Positions 11,286-34,306 of a stretch of 64,000 nucleotides of DNA are shown here, piece by piece. This DNA comes from Rathayibacter oskolensis (GTDB taxonomy: Bacteria; Actinomycetota; Actinomycetes; Actinomycetales; Microbacteriaceae), in assembly GCF_900177245.1 (NCBI RefSeq), contig NZ_FXBM01000001.1:1116001-1180000 (forward strand), written 5' to 3'. The translations under genes were made by a program, and so were the position numbers. The notes beneath the pieces are model-generated. The model was not told where the DNA came from and did not search any database. It was given only the letters and a program-made list of their open reading frames with translations. Within the stretch, counting starts at the first letter, position 1; the number at the start of each line of letters is the position of its first letter.

Positions 11286-11852
11286 ATGGATGTCGCTGAA
11301 GCTCTGGATCGCGCAAAGGTGCGCTTCGCAGAGGGAGACGTCCGCGGTGCCGTGTCACTGCTCGAGCGCTGCGTCGCCGCCGATCCGACCTGGCTCGATC
11401 CGCGCATCCTCCTCTCGGAGCTCTACCGCCGCTCGGGCGATCTGATCGAGGCGGGCCGCTGGGGCTACCTCGTCGAGAGCGGCGCCGCCCCCGAGGAGCT
11501 GCACGCGTTCGAGCAGGCGCTGGTCAGCACCGACGAGGATCCGTTCGAGCTGGCCGAGCGCGCCCTCGTGCAGCCGCTCGAACTCGCCTCGGAGTCGCCG
11601 CACGCCGCCCGGATGCTCGCGGAGCTCCCGCAGAGACTCGAGGAGGCGGCGCGACGCGACGAGGAGGCGCCCGATCCGCTGGACGGCGAGTGGTTCGAGC
11701 ACGAGGCGGTCCCGGTGAAGCGACGTGGAGGGCTGGTCGGCATGGCCGGAGCCGCCGGAGCGGCCGTCTTCGTCGTCGGAGGGGTCGTCGTCGGGGCGGC
11801 CGCGCTCCTCGTGGTGCCGGCCGTTCTGATCGCCATGCTGGTCACCTCCTGA
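11286..11852 (+). CDS. TPR-like protein with C-terminal membrane segments, function unknown
   Basis: A 188-residue protein. Residues 1-60 (EALDRAKVRFAEGDVRGAV then SLLERCVAADPTW and ARILLSELYRRSGD-type helices) look like one or two TPR-style helical hairpins. A charged middle follows, then a very hydrophobic end (about 150-188: AAVFVVGGVVVGAAALLVV) that would span the membrane once or twice. It resembles actinobacterial DUF6584-type proteins, but I make that link from memory and weakly. Its own leaderless promoter and the leucine leader downstream suggest a single-gene transcript. Confidence 0.7.
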   Translation: MDVAEALDRAKVRFAEGDVRGAVSLLERCVAADPTWLDPRILLSELYRRSGDLIEAGRWGYLVESGAAPEELHAFEQALVSTDEDPFELAERALVQPLELASESPHAARMLAELPQRLEEAARRDEEAPDPLDGEWFEHEAVPVKRRGGLVGMAGAAGAAVFVVGGVVVGAAALLVVPAVLIAMLVTS

Positions 11853-11911
11853 GTCGTCGCGACCGCGCGACAGGCCGTCGCGAGGCCGGGGGTCGTCCGT
11901 CGCCTCGGTGC

Positions 11912-11917
11912 TACGCT
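11912..11917 (+). promoter_or_regulatory. Leaderless -10 (TACGCT) of the leu leader transcript
   Basis: TACGCT ends six bases before the ATG of the leader peptide at 11924, so transcription probably starts on that ATG. A leaderless start is well suited to coupling peptide translation to attenuation. Confidence 0.6.
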
Positions 11918-11923
11918 CGGTCC

Positions 11924-11974
11924 ATGCTGTTCGGCCGGCTCCTTCTTCTCCGCCGCGACGAGACCTCGATCTGA
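11924..11974 (+). CDS. Leucine-rich leader peptide of the leuCD operon
   Basis: A 16-residue reading frame, MLFGRLLLLRRDETSI, with five leucines, four of them consecutive at positions 6-9. Two of those four codons are CTT, which the neighbouring genes use very little, so the run should be sensitive to charged tRNA-Leu. It ends 67 bases before leuC, and a stem-loop begins inside its last codons. Leucine-rich leader peptides that attenuate leu genes are known in actinobacteria and enterobacteria; assignment here rests on composition, position and the downstream secondary structure. Confidence 0.75.
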   Translation: MLFGRLLLLRRDETSI

Positions 11975-12021
11975 CAGGCCTCTCTCGTCGCGGTGTCTCT
12001 CGTGGGCTGACCACCTTTCTT
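11953..12021 (+). promoter_or_regulatory. Putative attenuator structure before leuC
   Basis: CCGCGACGAGA (11953-11963, inside the leader peptide) pairs perfectly with TCTCGTCGCGG (11983-11993), an 11-bp stem. A competing weak pairing joins GGTG (11992-11995) with CACC (12012-12015), and a small GTGG/CCAC hairpin is followed by CTTTCTT (12015-12021). A ribosome stalled on Leu codons 6-9 would cover the 5' arm of the large stem. No strong T-tract follows the large stem, so it is unclear whether the control is transcriptional or translational. Confidence 0.55.
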
Positions 12022-12041
12022 GAGGAAGAGAATCCACCGTC

Positions 12042-13514
12042 ATGAACGACAGTCCGACCGACGCCGCTGCACACCCGAGTGGCGAGCGGCCCCGCACGCT
12101 CGCCGAGAAGGTCTGGGACGACCACCTCGTCGCCAAGGGCGACGGCGGCACGCCCGACCTGATCTACATCGACCTGCACCTCGTGCACGAGGTGACCAGC
12201 CCCCAGGCCTTCGACGGGCTCCGCCTGGCGGGCCGCCCCGTGCGCCGCCCCGATCTCACCATCGCGACCGAGGACCACAACACCCCGACGCTCGGCATCG
12301 ACCGTCCGATCGCCGACCTCACCAGCCGCACCCAGATCGAGACCCTGCGTCGCAACTGCGCCGAGTTCGGCGTGCGCCTGCACTCGCTGGGCGACGTCGA
12401 GCAGGGCATCGTGCACGTCGTCGGCCCCCAGCTGGGTCTGACCATGCCCGGCATCACGGTGGTCTGCGGAGACTCGCACACCTCGACCCACGGCGCGTTC
12501 GGCGCGATGGCGTTCGGCATCGGCACGAGCGAGGTCGAGCACGTGATGGCCACCCAGACCCTGCCGCTCAAGCCCTTCAAGACGATGGCGATCACCGTCG
12601 ACGGCACCCTGAAGGACGGCGTCACGGCGAAGGACATCATCCTGGCCGTCATCGCGAAGATCGGCACCGGAGGCGGTCAGGGCTACGTCCTCGAGTACCG
12701 CGGCTCCGCGATCCGCGCCCTCTCGATGGAGGGGCGCATGACGATCTGCAACATGTCGATCGAGGCGGGCGCGCGAGCCGGCATGGTCGCGCCCGACGAG
12801 ACGACGTTCGCCTACCTCAAGGGGCGCCCGCACGCCCCCGAGGGCCAGGACTGGGACGACGCGGTCGCCTACTGGCGCACCCTGCCCAGCGACGAGGGAG
12901 CCGAGTTCGACGCCGAGGTCGTCCTCGACGGCGACACCCTCGAGCCCTTCGTCACCTGGGGCACGAACCCCGGCCAGGGCGTCTCGCTCTCGCAGGCGGT
13001 CCCCGACCCGGAGGCGATCGAGGACCCGAACGAGCGCTCCAACGCTCGCCGGGCGCTCGAGTACATGGACCTCGAGGCGGGCACCCCGATGAAGGAGATC
13101 CCGGTCGACGCCGTCTTCATGGGCTCCTGCACCAACTCCCGCATCGAGGATCTCCGGGCCTTCGCCTCGGTCATCGCGGGACGCACCAAGGCTCCCGGCG
13201 TGCGCGTCATGGTCGTGCCGGGCTCCGCGCGGGTGCGCATCGAGGCCGAGGCCGAGGGCCTCGACAAGGTGTTCACCGACTTCGGCGCCGAATGGCGGTT
13301 CGCCGGCTGCTCGATGTGCCTCGGGATGAACCCCGACCAGCTCGCGCCCGGCGAGCGCTGCGCCTCCACCTCGAACCGCAACTTCGAGGGCAGGCAGGGC
13401 AAGGGAGGACGCACCCACCTCGTCTCGCCGCTGGTCGCCGCGGCGACGGCCGTGCGCGGCACCCTCTCCAGCCCGTCCGATCTGGAGCCCGCTCGAGAAC
13501 TGGTGGAGGCCTGA
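12042..13514 (+). CDS. leuC: 3-isopropylmalate dehydratase, large subunit
   Basis: Isomerises 2- to 3-isopropylmalate in leucine biosynthesis, as a heterodimer with LeuD. The 490-residue length is usual for the family. The [4Fe-4S] ligands are visible: Cys in MGSCTNSR (about residue 365) and the pair [11 protein letters not shown] (about 425 and 428). Substrate-site motifs EDHNTPT and [13 protein letters not shown] are intact. The Shine-Dalgarno is GAGGAAG at 12022-12028, 13 bases before the ATG. leuD follows two bases after the stop. Regulation is probably by the leucine leader peptide upstream. Confidence 0.97.
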
Positions 13515-13516
13515 TC

Positions 13517-14113
13517 ATGGACAAGTTCGAGACCGTCACCGGCATCGCCGCGCCCCTGAAGCGGAGCAACGTCGACACCGACCAGATCATCCCCGCCGTG
13601 TTCCTCAAGCGGGTAACCAAGACCGGCTTCGAGGACGCGCTGTTCCACGGCTGGCGCCAGGAGGAGGGCTTCGTCCTCAACCAGGGGCCGTTCCTCGGGG
13701 CGCAGATCCTGGTCGCGGGGCCCGACTTCGGCACCGGCTCCAGCCGCGAGCACGCGGTCTGGGCGCTGCGCGACTTCGGCTTCCGTGTCGTGCTGTCCTC
13801 GCGTTTCGGCGACATCTTCCGCGGCAACTCCGGCAAGCAGGGTCTGCTCGCCGCGGCGGTCGCCGAGGACGACATCGAGCGCATCTGGGCGATCATCGAC
13901 GCGCAGCCGGGAATAGAACTCACGGTCGATCTGGTTGCCCGTACGGTCACCGCCGGTGGCGAGACCTTCTCCTTCGAGATCGACGACTACACTCGTTGGC
14001 GCCTGATCGAGGGGCTGGACGACATCGGCCTGACCCTGCGCGACGAAGCGCTCATTTCCGAATTCGAGACCCGTCGCGAGAGCTGGCGGCCCAAGACATT
14101 GCCGGTGAAATAG
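13517..14113 (+). CDS. leuD: 3-isopropylmalate dehydratase, small subunit
   Basis: A 198-residue swivel-domain subunit that completes the LeuCD active site. Family motifs are present: [17 protein letters not shown] near the N-terminus, [17 protein letters not shown] around residues 68-84, and [11 protein letters not shown] around 94-104. A GGAGG Shine-Dalgarno at 13505-13509 lies within the end of leuC, showing translational coupling. The stop is followed after one base by the murA start, so amino-acid and cell-wall genes share a transcript. Confidence 0.97.
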
Positions 14114-31844: not shown

Positions 31845-34306
31845 TCCTCGACCTCCTCGGTCGCCGTGGGAGTCGGTGTCGGTGTCGGCGTGGCGGTCGG
31901 CGTCGGGGCCGGTGTCGCCTCCGCCGTCGCCGCAGCCGTCGGATCGGCGCTCGGAGCCTGCGTCGCGGGCGCCGGGACCAGGGCCCCGTTGCTGACGAGC
32001 AGCGTGATGCTCGAGTACCTCGGCGCAGCGGTGCCCGCTCCGGGATCGGTGCCGGCCACGGTGCCCGCGGCGACCGCCGAGTCGACGGTCGCGCCCTCCT
32101 CGACATCGAAGCCGAGGTCCTCCAGGGTCTCCGTCGCGTCGTCGACCGATCGACCCGTCACGTCCGGGACCGTGACCTGACGGCCGTTGAGCAGTGCACT
32201 CGAAGGTTCGGCGAAGTCGTCTCCGCCGTACTTCTCGTCGGCGCGGGTCATCACCGCGTTCCAGATGTAGTGGCGCAGGTTCGAGGCGTAGGCGCGCGTG
32301 CCCGTCTCGGTGTTGCGCACGAGGACGTTCCGCATCGAGGCCTCGCCGGTGATGTTGCCCACCCAGACGACGGTCGCGACCCGCTTCGACGCACCGTCCA
32401 TCCAGGTGTGCACCGCCTCGTCGGTCGTGCCGGTCTTGCCGATGTGCTCGATGCCGTCGTCCGGATCGGAGGCGGCGGCGGTGCCGCCCGTCACCACGTC
32501 CTGCAGGGCGTCGGTCGCCACGGCGGTCAGCTCGGGCGAGAGCGCCTGGTTGCAGGCCGTGACCGGGGGCTGGACCGCGGCGCCCGCCGAGTCGGTGATG
32601 GAGTCGATGGCGATCGCGCTGCAGGCGGTGCCGTCGTTCGCGAAGCCGGCGAAGGCCGTCACCATCGACAGCGGCGAGATCTGGTCGGCCGAGCCGAGGA
32701 TCGCCGAGGGGAAGTAGCTGAGCTCGGCGCCCGAGGCGGTCTTCACTCCGAAGGCGGCCGCCTGGTCGCGGATGGCGCAGAGGTCGAGCTGCTGCGCCAT
32801 GGCGACGAAGACGGTGTTGATCGAGCGCATCGTGCCCTGCAGGACGCTGAAGGTGCCGTTCTCGCTGTCGTCGTTGTTGACCTCGAACTCGCCGTTCCAC
32901 TCGCCGCCCGGTGCGCAGGAGGCGGGGAAGTCGTCGAACGTGCGCTCGCGGCCGTTCACCGTCTCGTAGATGGTGTGCCCGTTCGCGAGCCACTGGGCGA
33001 GGGTGAAGACCTTGTAGGTCGAGCCGACCTGGAACCCGGCCGAGCCGCCGTAGGCGGTGTCGGTGCTGAAGTTGATGGCCGAGAAGTTCTCGCCGTTCAC
33101 CGAGCCCGCGGCGTCGTAGTCCTTGTTCTGCGTCATCGCGAGGATGCGCCCGGAGCCGACCTCCATCGAGACGGTCGCGCTGCCGATGTTGACGTCGTCG
33201 ACGGGGGTCTTCGGGACCCACTGGTTCGTCGCGGCCGTCGCCACATCCTGCAGATCGCGGTCGAGCGTCGTGTAGATCTTGTAGCCGCCGCGCTGGAAGT
33301 TCGCGAAGCGGGTGTTCTCGTCGTCGCCGAAGGCGGGGTCGTTGCGGATCACCCAGGTGACGTAGTCGCAGAAGTAGGCGGCGTTGCCCGCCGTCTGGCA
33401 CCCGGTCGGGGTCTGCGTGATGGCGGGGACGACCTCCTCCGCGACGGCCGCGTCGTGGTCGGCCTGCGAGATCTTCCCCTCCTGGAGCATCTGGTCGAGG
33501 ACGTAGTCGCGGCGGACCTTGTTCTCGGGGATGTTCTCGGGCACGTCGATGCGCAGACCGTTGGGGTTGTTCACGGTGGCGATGAGGCTGGCGGACTGGG
33601 CGAGCGTGAGGTTCGCCGCCGTCGTCGTGAAGTAGTACTCGGCCGCCGCCTGGATGCCGTACACCTGGCCGCCGAAGCCGGCGATGTTGAGGTAGCCGAG
33701 CAGGATGTCGTCCTTGCTGTACTTCTTCTCGAGGTCGACGGCGAGCTTCATCTCCTTGAGCTTGCGCTCGGGGGTGGTCGCCGTCGCCTCGGCGTAGGCG
33801 GCCTCGGAGGCGGCGGGGTCGGTGTCGCTCAGCGACTCCGCCTTCTGCACGAGGACGTTCTTGACGTACTGCTGCGTGATCGAGGACCCGCCCTGCAGGT
33901 CGCCGCCGAACACGTTGCTGAGGACCGCGCGGATCGTCCCCTGCAGGTCGACGCCGCCGTGCTCGTAGAAGCGCGGGTCCTCGGTGGCGACCGCGGCGTC
34001 CTTCACGAACTGGCTGACCTGGTCGAAGGCCACCTCCTCGCGGTTCTGCGCATAGAAGGAGGCGAGCAGCGCGTCGGAGCCGTCAGCGTTCTTCGCGTAG
34101 ATCTCGGTCTTCTGAGCGAGCTGGCCGAGCTCGAGGTACTCCGGGACGGTCTCGAAGAGCCCGATCGGATTGTTCTCGGCGAGACCGGTGACGGCGAGGG
34201 CGGGGGTGACGCCGACGGTGATCAGCAGGCCGCCGGCGAGACTCGCTCCGACGATGCCGAGAACCCGGGCGAGCACGCCGCCGCGGGCGGTTCCTTGCGC
34301 AGACAT
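31841..34306 (-). CDS. Class A penicillin-binding protein with PASTA domain
   Basis: A bifunctional peptidoglycan glycosyltransferase and DD-transpeptidase of 821 residues. One N-terminal membrane helix lies at about 13-40. The GT51 domain has Glu109 in ATEDPRFYEHGGVD and the GGSSITQQYVKN motif (139-150). The transpeptidase motifs are S429-T-Y-K, S495-I-N and K624-T-G-T-T. A PASTA repeat (about 690-765, VTVPDVTGRSVDDAT) and a Pro-Thr-rich tail of PTPT repeats follow, probably reaching into the wall. Its promoter appears leaderless (TACTCT). Divergent from the MFS gene. Confidence 0.95.
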   Translation of the reverse strand: MSAQGTARGGVLARVLGIVGASLAGGLLITVGVTPALAVTGLAENNPIGLFETVPEYLELGQLAQKTEIYAKNADGSDALLASFYAQNREEVAFDQVSQFVKDAAVATEDPRFYEHGGVDLQGTIRAVLSNVFGGDLQGGSSITQQYVKNVLVQKAESLSDTDPAASEAAYAEATATTPERKLKEMKLAVDLEKKYSKDDILLGYLNIAGFGGQVYGIQAAAEYYFTTTAANLTLAQSASLIATVNNPNGLRIDVPENIPENKVRRDYVLDQMLQEGKISQADHDAAVAEEVVPAITQTPTGCQTAGNAAYFCDYVTWVIRNDPAFGDDENTRFANFQRGGYKIYTTLDRDLQDVATAATNQWVPKTPVDDVNIGSATVSMEVGSGRILAMTQNKDYDAAGSVNGENFSAINFSTDTAYGGSAGFQVGSTYKVFTLAQWLANGHTIYETVNGRERTFDDFPASCAPGGEWNGEFEVNNDDSENGTFSVLQGTMRSINTVFVAMAQQLDLCAIRDQAAAFGVKTASGAELSYFPSAILGSADQISPLSMVTAFAGFANDGTACSAIAIDSITDSAGAAVQPPVTACNQALSPELTAVATDALQDVVTGGTAAASDPDDGIEHIGKTGTTDEAVHTWMDGASKRVATVVWVGNITGEASMRNVLVRNTETGTRAYASNLRHYIWNAVMTRADEKYGGDDFAEPSSALLNGRQVTVPDVTGRSVDDATETLEDLGFDVEEGATVDSAVAAGTVAGTDPGAGTAAPRYSSITLLVSNGALVPAPATQAPSADPTAAATAEATPAPTPTATPTPTPTPTATEEVEE

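Follow-up and report, generated by a model that had tools for sequence, protein, structure and literature searches.

The short open reading frame that precedes leuC in the analysed DNA of Rathayibacter oskolensis (a stretch of 64,000 nucleotides, called here the window) is almost certainly a copy of the actinobacterial LEU element, standing before leuCD in addition to leuA. This identification follows from the conservation of such leaders in the family and from the occurrence of paired leuA and leuC copies. As to function, sequence comparison and modelling make it likely that we are dealing with a leucine-sensing leaderless leader, in which a stalled ribosome frees the ribosome-binding site of leuC, the control being translational. 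Comparison of relatives demonstrates conservation of the reading frame, the run of Leu codons, the stem and a codon choice which strengthens the pairing with the ribosome site.

In the mechanism that we propose, transcription of leuC would start at or beside the start codon of the leader, and ribosomes would translate its 16 codons without a Shine-Dalgarno site. With charged Leu-tRNA plentiful, the ribosome would reach the stop codon in the loop of stem P1 and leave; the CTY Leu codons could thereupon bind the ribosome site of leuC, a pairing that P1, and perhaps a pseudoknot of the loop, would hold in place, and translation of leuC would be low. When leucine is short, the ribosome would stall on the Leu codons and cover this strand, which would leave the ribosome site free and allow leuCD to be translated. 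Both the leaderless start and the response to leucine are features that we infer from the sequence.

The leader and its surroundings in the window

All elements described below lie on the + strand. The putative promoter is an extended -10 motif, TGCTACGCT (TGNTANNNT), at 11909-11917, proposed from the sequence and from the TANNNT and TG counts in the family. Its hexamer TACGCT (11912-11917) is followed by CGGTCC and then by an ATG at 11924, six bases downstream, as an earlier note on this DNA had read it. The presumed leaderless ORF which begins there (11924-11974), recognised by its sequence and by a conserved in-frame motif, encodes MLFGRLLLLRRDETSI in 16 codons and ends with TGA at 11972-11974. 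Four successive Leu codons, CTC CTT CTT CTC (11939-11950), likewise present as first described, would serve both as the sensing codons and as the 5' strand of a stem sequestering the ribosome site. Two of the four had been called codons scarcely used by the surrounding genes; of the two kinds of Leu codon present, only CTT is scarce (1 of 209 Leu codons in six neighbouring ORFs of the window), CTC accounting for 113 of the same 209. Beyond residue 3, CTT makes up 117 of the 192 Leu codons in the leuC leaders.

Stem P1, discernible in the sequence and in the family alignment, joins CCGCGACGAGA (11953-11963, within the leader ORF) to TCTCGTCGCGG (11983-11993), with all 11 of its 11 pairs Watson-Crick. 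This perfect stem was correctly placed ahead of leuC (3-isopropylmalate dehydratase large subunit, 12042-13514; NCBIfam TIGR00170, E 3e-221) and leuD (small subunit, 13517-14113; NCBIfam TIGR00171, E 7.6e-55). The leuC ribosome-binding site, GAGGAAG (12022-12028), is predicted to form the 3' strand of the sequestering stem; folding pairs it with the Leu codons at 11942-11948 with probabilities of 0.77-0.87, and the duplex of the two regions has -10.0 kcal/mol. Weaker pairings reaching towards this site had been mentioned in the earlier note; functionally, this predicted pairing is the more telling one, the 11-bp stem less so. Candidate strands of a pseudoknot are the loop segment CAGGCC (11975-11980, 5' strand) and GGGCTG (12004-12009, 3' strand), both proposed from covariation across the family, with none seen within the leuC copies. 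This helix would be imperfect in the window, with one bulged or mismatched G; in Rathayibacter iranicus it is clean (TCGGCC with GGCCGA). Just 5' of the leuC ribosome site the window also carries CTTTC, whose pairing with GGAAG might give a short local hairpin (12015-12028).

No T-tract follows P1, the longest T run between the stem and leuC being TTT, and no terminator-like site was found on the + strand in 11700-12200, which agrees with the absence of a strong T-tract noted previously; the terminator hairpin with U tract that defines classical attenuators of the E. coli leu/trp type is likewise absent from this region. Because there is no T-tract, the control is probably translational and not transcriptional. 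Transcriptional attenuation, in which a halt of transcription ahead of leuC, by RNA polymerase alone or through Rho, would depend on translation of the leader, has a parallel in the Corynebacterium ilvB leader peptides, which act with terminator and antiterminator stems (PMC10272879), and Rho-dependent termination has no mark among the sequence features examined here. However, in view of the missing T-tract and terminator, and of the Leu codons having the ribosome site itself as their pairing partner, we regard this explanation as unlikely.

The single-sequence fold energy of the window's copy is ordinary (z -0.85), and stability lends no support to the element. This would agree with a chance ORF lying beside a chance stem, an idea to which we give practically no credence: it is refuted by comparison, and it is conservation across the family, not fold stability, which tells that the leader is not due to chance. 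Rfam gave no relevant match above its cut-offs for the window or for seven related loci, and nothing relevant below the cut-offs for the window. The same 16-residue peptide is found in the leuC leaders of three genomes of the family sample (L142, L143 and L148), whose LeuC proteins are 95.7, 92.8 and 93.5% identical, respectively, to that of the window over 488-490 residues. A rapid tree of LeuC proteins puts the window beside R. iranicus (SH-aLRT 87, not starred), the nearest named entry by path being a Microbacterium; the tree makes Rathayibacter or a neighbouring genus a likely placement.

Leaders before leuC and leuA in the Microbacteriaceae

One LeuC scan supplied the loci, the best 80 of 595 being used (27 from Microbacteriaceae, 53 from elsewhere). 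The window's leader and 19 others from before leuC served to train a covariance model, R1, whose only structure is the 10-bp P1 stem. Its search of these 80 loci and the window returned 40 rows, of which 20 were discarded for an E above 1e-17; the 20 leaders all have E <= 8.8e-18, and the next best match has E 0.05. Since R1 was trained on the same 20 leaders, their scores arise by construction, and what is informative is the gap and the new sites. Among the best 80 of 595 loci, the leader precedes leuC in 19 of the 27 from Microbacteriaceae and in none of the 53 others, which include L044, named only to phylum. R1 found no leuC leader at L013 Frigoribacterium, L014 Curtobacterium, L019, L021, L023 Salinibacterium, L029 Rhodoluna, and L034 and L037 Agrococcus. 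On the LeuC tree the trait requires five changes, which does not separate one origin with losses from several gains. Weak R1 matches in the window at 33688, 11813 and 17965 (E 0.18, 0.48 and 0.83) were taken as chance, as were the sites L109 (Micrococcus) and L124.

Through the LeuC loci 30 genomes were reached, 29 of them with a match at E <= 1; the majority of those weaker than E 0.01 seem to be fortuitous. All eight of the 22 Microbacteriaceae in this set that lack a leuC leader have a leuA leader, which is also present in six of the eight other genomes (L102, L105, L106, L107, L108 and L121), G025 having none and G024 being doubtful. At locus L105, R1, although built from leuC leaders only, recovers the Streptomyces leuA leader MRFGLLLLSCRGEGL with E 3.3e-11.

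In the family sample, 191 of 199 Microbacteriaceae genomes have at least one site at E <= 0.001, and the eight without a site are genomes of 0.7 to 2.1 Mb, which may be reduced or incomplete. A tblastn comparison of the DNA that follows each of 165 sites placed 99 before leuA, 58 before leuC, three before a leuA paralogue, one before an MFS transporter and one before leuS, three receiving no assignment; 99 to 58 is not a frequency, because only part of the family-sample matches was fetched, best first. For this set, 65 of 75 rows were used, the other ten being three hits on the reverse strand of stems already counted and seven repeat leuC loci, and all 80 rows of a second site set were retained; L124-L127 stood outside this search, L125-L127 being repeats of other sites. 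Subtracting three sites without the P1 motif and four duplicates leaves 158 unique sites.

In every one of the 29 family-sample genomes with two fetched sites (best-scoring fetched first), one stands before leuA and the other before leuC. The earlier note was thus right to place an element before leuC and mistaken in adding "rather than leuA"; its idea of a variation on known actinobacterial leu leaders is correct as regards kinship and not as regards a new design, the leader being an instance of the LEU element (PMC1262725). Similarity between leuA and leuC elements averages 0.767 within a genome versus 0.749 between genomes (own above the mean in 20 of 29 genomes), a difference so small that recent copying between the two leaders is unsupported.

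Several leaders occupy other positions. In Leucobacter G019 (L113) and in Microbacterium G002 and G004 (L118 and L122), LEU-type leaders stand ahead of an additional 2-isopropylmalate synthase, which scores above the cut-off of NCBIfam NF002991. Their pseudoknot is a different one, and strong; GACCGGC with GCCGGTC is an example. Leucobacter G019 also has the leader MSGTLLLHRRDGV (L114, 201-303, +) before a Pfam MFS_1 transporter, for which control by leucine is possible. In Leucobacter G017 the leader MPQRLLLRRRARN (L120, 194-288, +), with pseudoknot ACCAGC/GCTGGT, lies before ORF 309-1592, encoding a 427-aa transporter-like protein with only weak MFS matches below the cut-offs. In Streptomyces G028, R1 finds the leuS leader MRAVRLLLSEPR, followed by a hairpin and a T run (L123); this peptide is the published LeuL2 (PMC8079986), and a kinship of the leuS attenuator with the LEU element is possible.

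When the start of the leader ORF was picked after the -10 motif, Leu codons being ignored, it was present in 55/55 leuC and 96/97 leuA sites, one leuA site having no recognised start. Its distance to P1 takes the values 26, 29, 32 or 35 nt, which are 2 mod 3 without exception (55/55 leuC, 96/97 leuA), and each of the 151 leaders so recognised has its stop codon within the P1 loop. Starts picked by frame alone have TANNNT 5-7 nt upstream in 55/55 leuC and 95/97 leuA sites, compared with fractions of 0.023 and 0.027 in the respective shuffled upstream DNA, and TG occupies the extended -10 position in 52/55 and 86/96 sites. The motif LL..R[DGS][EG] is in frame in 55/55 leuC and 95/96 leuA leaders. 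ATG begins 31 of the leuC leaders and GTG 24. Conservation in relatives had been set beforehand as the test of the earlier reading, and both components passed it: the frame, kept in all 55 unique leuC leaders together with this motif and a stop inside the stem loop, and the stem, with pairing maintained through two-sided changes.

Translational coupling is common, and the leader is close to leuC (median 46 nt from the stem to the leuC start), so that the short ORF might merely couple or boost leuC translation with no sensing of leucine. Yet a run of 3-5 Leu codons is found in 53 of 55 leuC leaders (two codons in the remaining two), and 161 of the 165 classified sites sit before leuA, leuC, a leuA paralogue or leuS, which makes simple coupling a highly improbable account.

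Pairings of the RNA and the modelled ribosome

Two-sided changes in P1 occur over the 158 sites at four of 10 pairs (pairs 3, 5, 6 and 9, with 3, 3, 13 and 19), and 9 of 1580 cells are non-pairing, where cells count sequences, not events, and the count leans towards pairing because the model that found the sites includes P1 and because the 3' arm was positioned where it fitted best. The sequence of P1 is nearly invariant over these sites. Such invariance would suit the proposal of Seliverstov et al. that the RNA fold is a binding site for a regulatory protein, leader translation being of minor importance; a protein ligand was put forward in that article, where mutations of the Streptomyces coelicolor leuA leader are described as at odds with classical attenuation (PMC1262725). 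Against this stand the reading frame, intact in all 151 sites for which a start was recognised, with lengths that vary only in threes, the retained Leu run, and a codon choice which strengthens the pairing with the ribosome site before leuC. We therefore judge protein binding rather improbable as the main mode of action and prefer a leader read by the ribosome.

For the candidate pseudoknot, own strands over all 158 sites average -8.90 kcal/mol versus -8.27 after exchange of partners (0/200 as good), and in 12 divergent copies, hand-picked after viewing, -13.66 versus -10.73 (0/200). Within the 55 leuC copies no covariation was detected (-8.67 versus -8.74, 129/200 as good), and with a longest-helix test own and shuffled partners could not be told apart in these copies; their pairing does beat that of shuffled sequence (2/50 as good).

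The pairing between the Leu run and the ribosome site is better marked in the leuC copies (n=54), in which own pairs reach -10.42 kcal/mol and cross-paired ones -9.01 (0/50 as low), with -8.09 for synonymous codons and -5.88 for a shuffled site region. For leuA the values are -9.42 own and -8.58 exchanged (0/50 as low), and the difference from synonymous codons (-8.99) is weak. Sites whose gene start lies far off (one leuC, four leuA) did not enter this test, and gene starts were chosen by ribosome-site fit, which favours pyrimidine-run pairing in own and exchanged pairs alike. The synonymous-codon control, with roughly genomic weights (CTC 54, CTG 43, CTT 2, CTA 1), is independent of relatedness. 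Among sites below 80% identity, covariation of the Leu run with the ribosome site was matched by 2/2000 permutations both for leuC (35 sites) and for leuA (45 sites); below 72% identity it is borderline for leuC (143/2000, 17 sites), with 91/2000 for leuA (16 sites).

The effect of a ribosome was modelled by masking the bases beneath it and computing the probability that the ribosome site is unpaired, over nested structures only. For leuC (n=54) this probability is 0.21 in free RNA, 0.45 with the ribosome on the Leu codons and 0.23 with the ribosome at the stop; the corresponding values are 0.40, 0.42 and 0.43 for shuffled leaders and 0.37, 0.46 and 0.36 for synonymous Leu codons. The difference between stall and stop thus amounts to 0.223 in real leaders, -0.001 (SE about 0.026) in shuffled ones and 0.098 with synonymous codons. 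For leuA (n=93), modelled with real copies only, the values are 0.23, 0.48 and 0.25. The modelling, set beside its controls, indicates that real leaders on average hide the site and release it on stalling, and that the choice of Leu codons matters. In 50 of the 54 leuC copies the stalled value is above that at the stop, and only 17 show a gap of more than 0.3. The window's own copy is flat (0.17 free, 0.20 stalled, 0.19 at stop), showing no switch in this model, perhaps because its ribosome site may pair with the adjacent CTTTC; among its kin, L142 is also flat and L143 weak, stall and stop being nearly alike in L015 and L001.

LtbR and related leaders

In other Actinobacteria the same operon is controlled by LtbR/NdgR, an IclR-type regulator; NdgR and its orthologs adjoin leuCD and regulate it (PMC4340878). 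Among the best 80 of 595 loci, leuC has LtbR as its opposite-strand neighbour in 50 of 53 loci from outside Microbacteriaceae and in 0 of 27 from within; the three exceptions are L044, L068 and L070, of which L068 has only 335 bases upstream. With the LtbR protein of L025 as query, matches of at least 51% identity were obtained in 8/8 genomes from outside the family (one being the query's own), and none of ortholog grade in the 22 Microbacteriaceae genomes searched, where the best reached 39%. All eight Microbacteriaceae loci without a leuC leader also lack LtbR, and thus loss of LtbR alone does not require a leader. We put forward tentatively, as a possibility falling a little short of an even chance, that in Microbacteriaceae the leader spread from leuA to leuCD, in a few species also reaching a leuA paralogue and membrane transporters, and assumed the control by leucine once LtbR had been lost. 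If so, a protein repressor would have been replaced by a copied translational RNA switch.

A predicted RNA element is hereby extended to a second operon of the leucine pathway, and the two copies per genome present in many species provide material for comparative tests. In the open-licence literature, judged mainly by titles and abstract openings, we found no leuC leader in Actinobacteria.

Comparison with known systems places the leader as follows. LtbR/NdgR has the operon in common with it and differs in being a DNA-binding protein, not an RNA leader (PMC4340878). The polycysteine short ORFs of mycobacteria, in which elongation speed controls the downstream gene (Canestrari et al. 2020, as presented in PMC9031893), are alike in being leaderless and in carrying a run of codons for a single amino acid; they belong to cysteine operons, and the likeness is one of mechanism only. 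The leuA leader of Corynebacterium diphtheriae, MNRANLLLLRRGGSQA (PMC5784534), has LLLLRR in common with the window peptide, and differs in its gene and in that no start site was assignable there. LeuL1 of Streptomyces lividans TK24, a leaderless transcript of 15 codons with no typical terminator, has the peptide recovered by R1 at L105; the gene is again leuA (PMC8079986). The LEU element of Seliverstov et al. (2005) was described before leuA, and in one case inside a transposase gene, as a Leu leader with a base stem between Leu codons and Shine-Dalgarno sequence and a pseudoknot (PMC1262725). The words leuC, leuCD, leuD and leaderless are absent from the text of that article, taken without its figures. 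Its published copies concern leuA, whereas the window copy precedes leuC; in common are the upstream ORF with a Leu codon run, the base stem, predicted here between 11942-11948 and 12022-12028, and homology, a model made from leuC leaders having found 99 leuA copies among 165 sites. A counterpart of the pseudoknot is a candidate, with covariation over all 158 sites and none within the leuC copies. To the question left by the 2005 study our comparison adds quantitative evidence from sequence: before leuC, the choice of Leu codons contributes to concealing the ribosome site.
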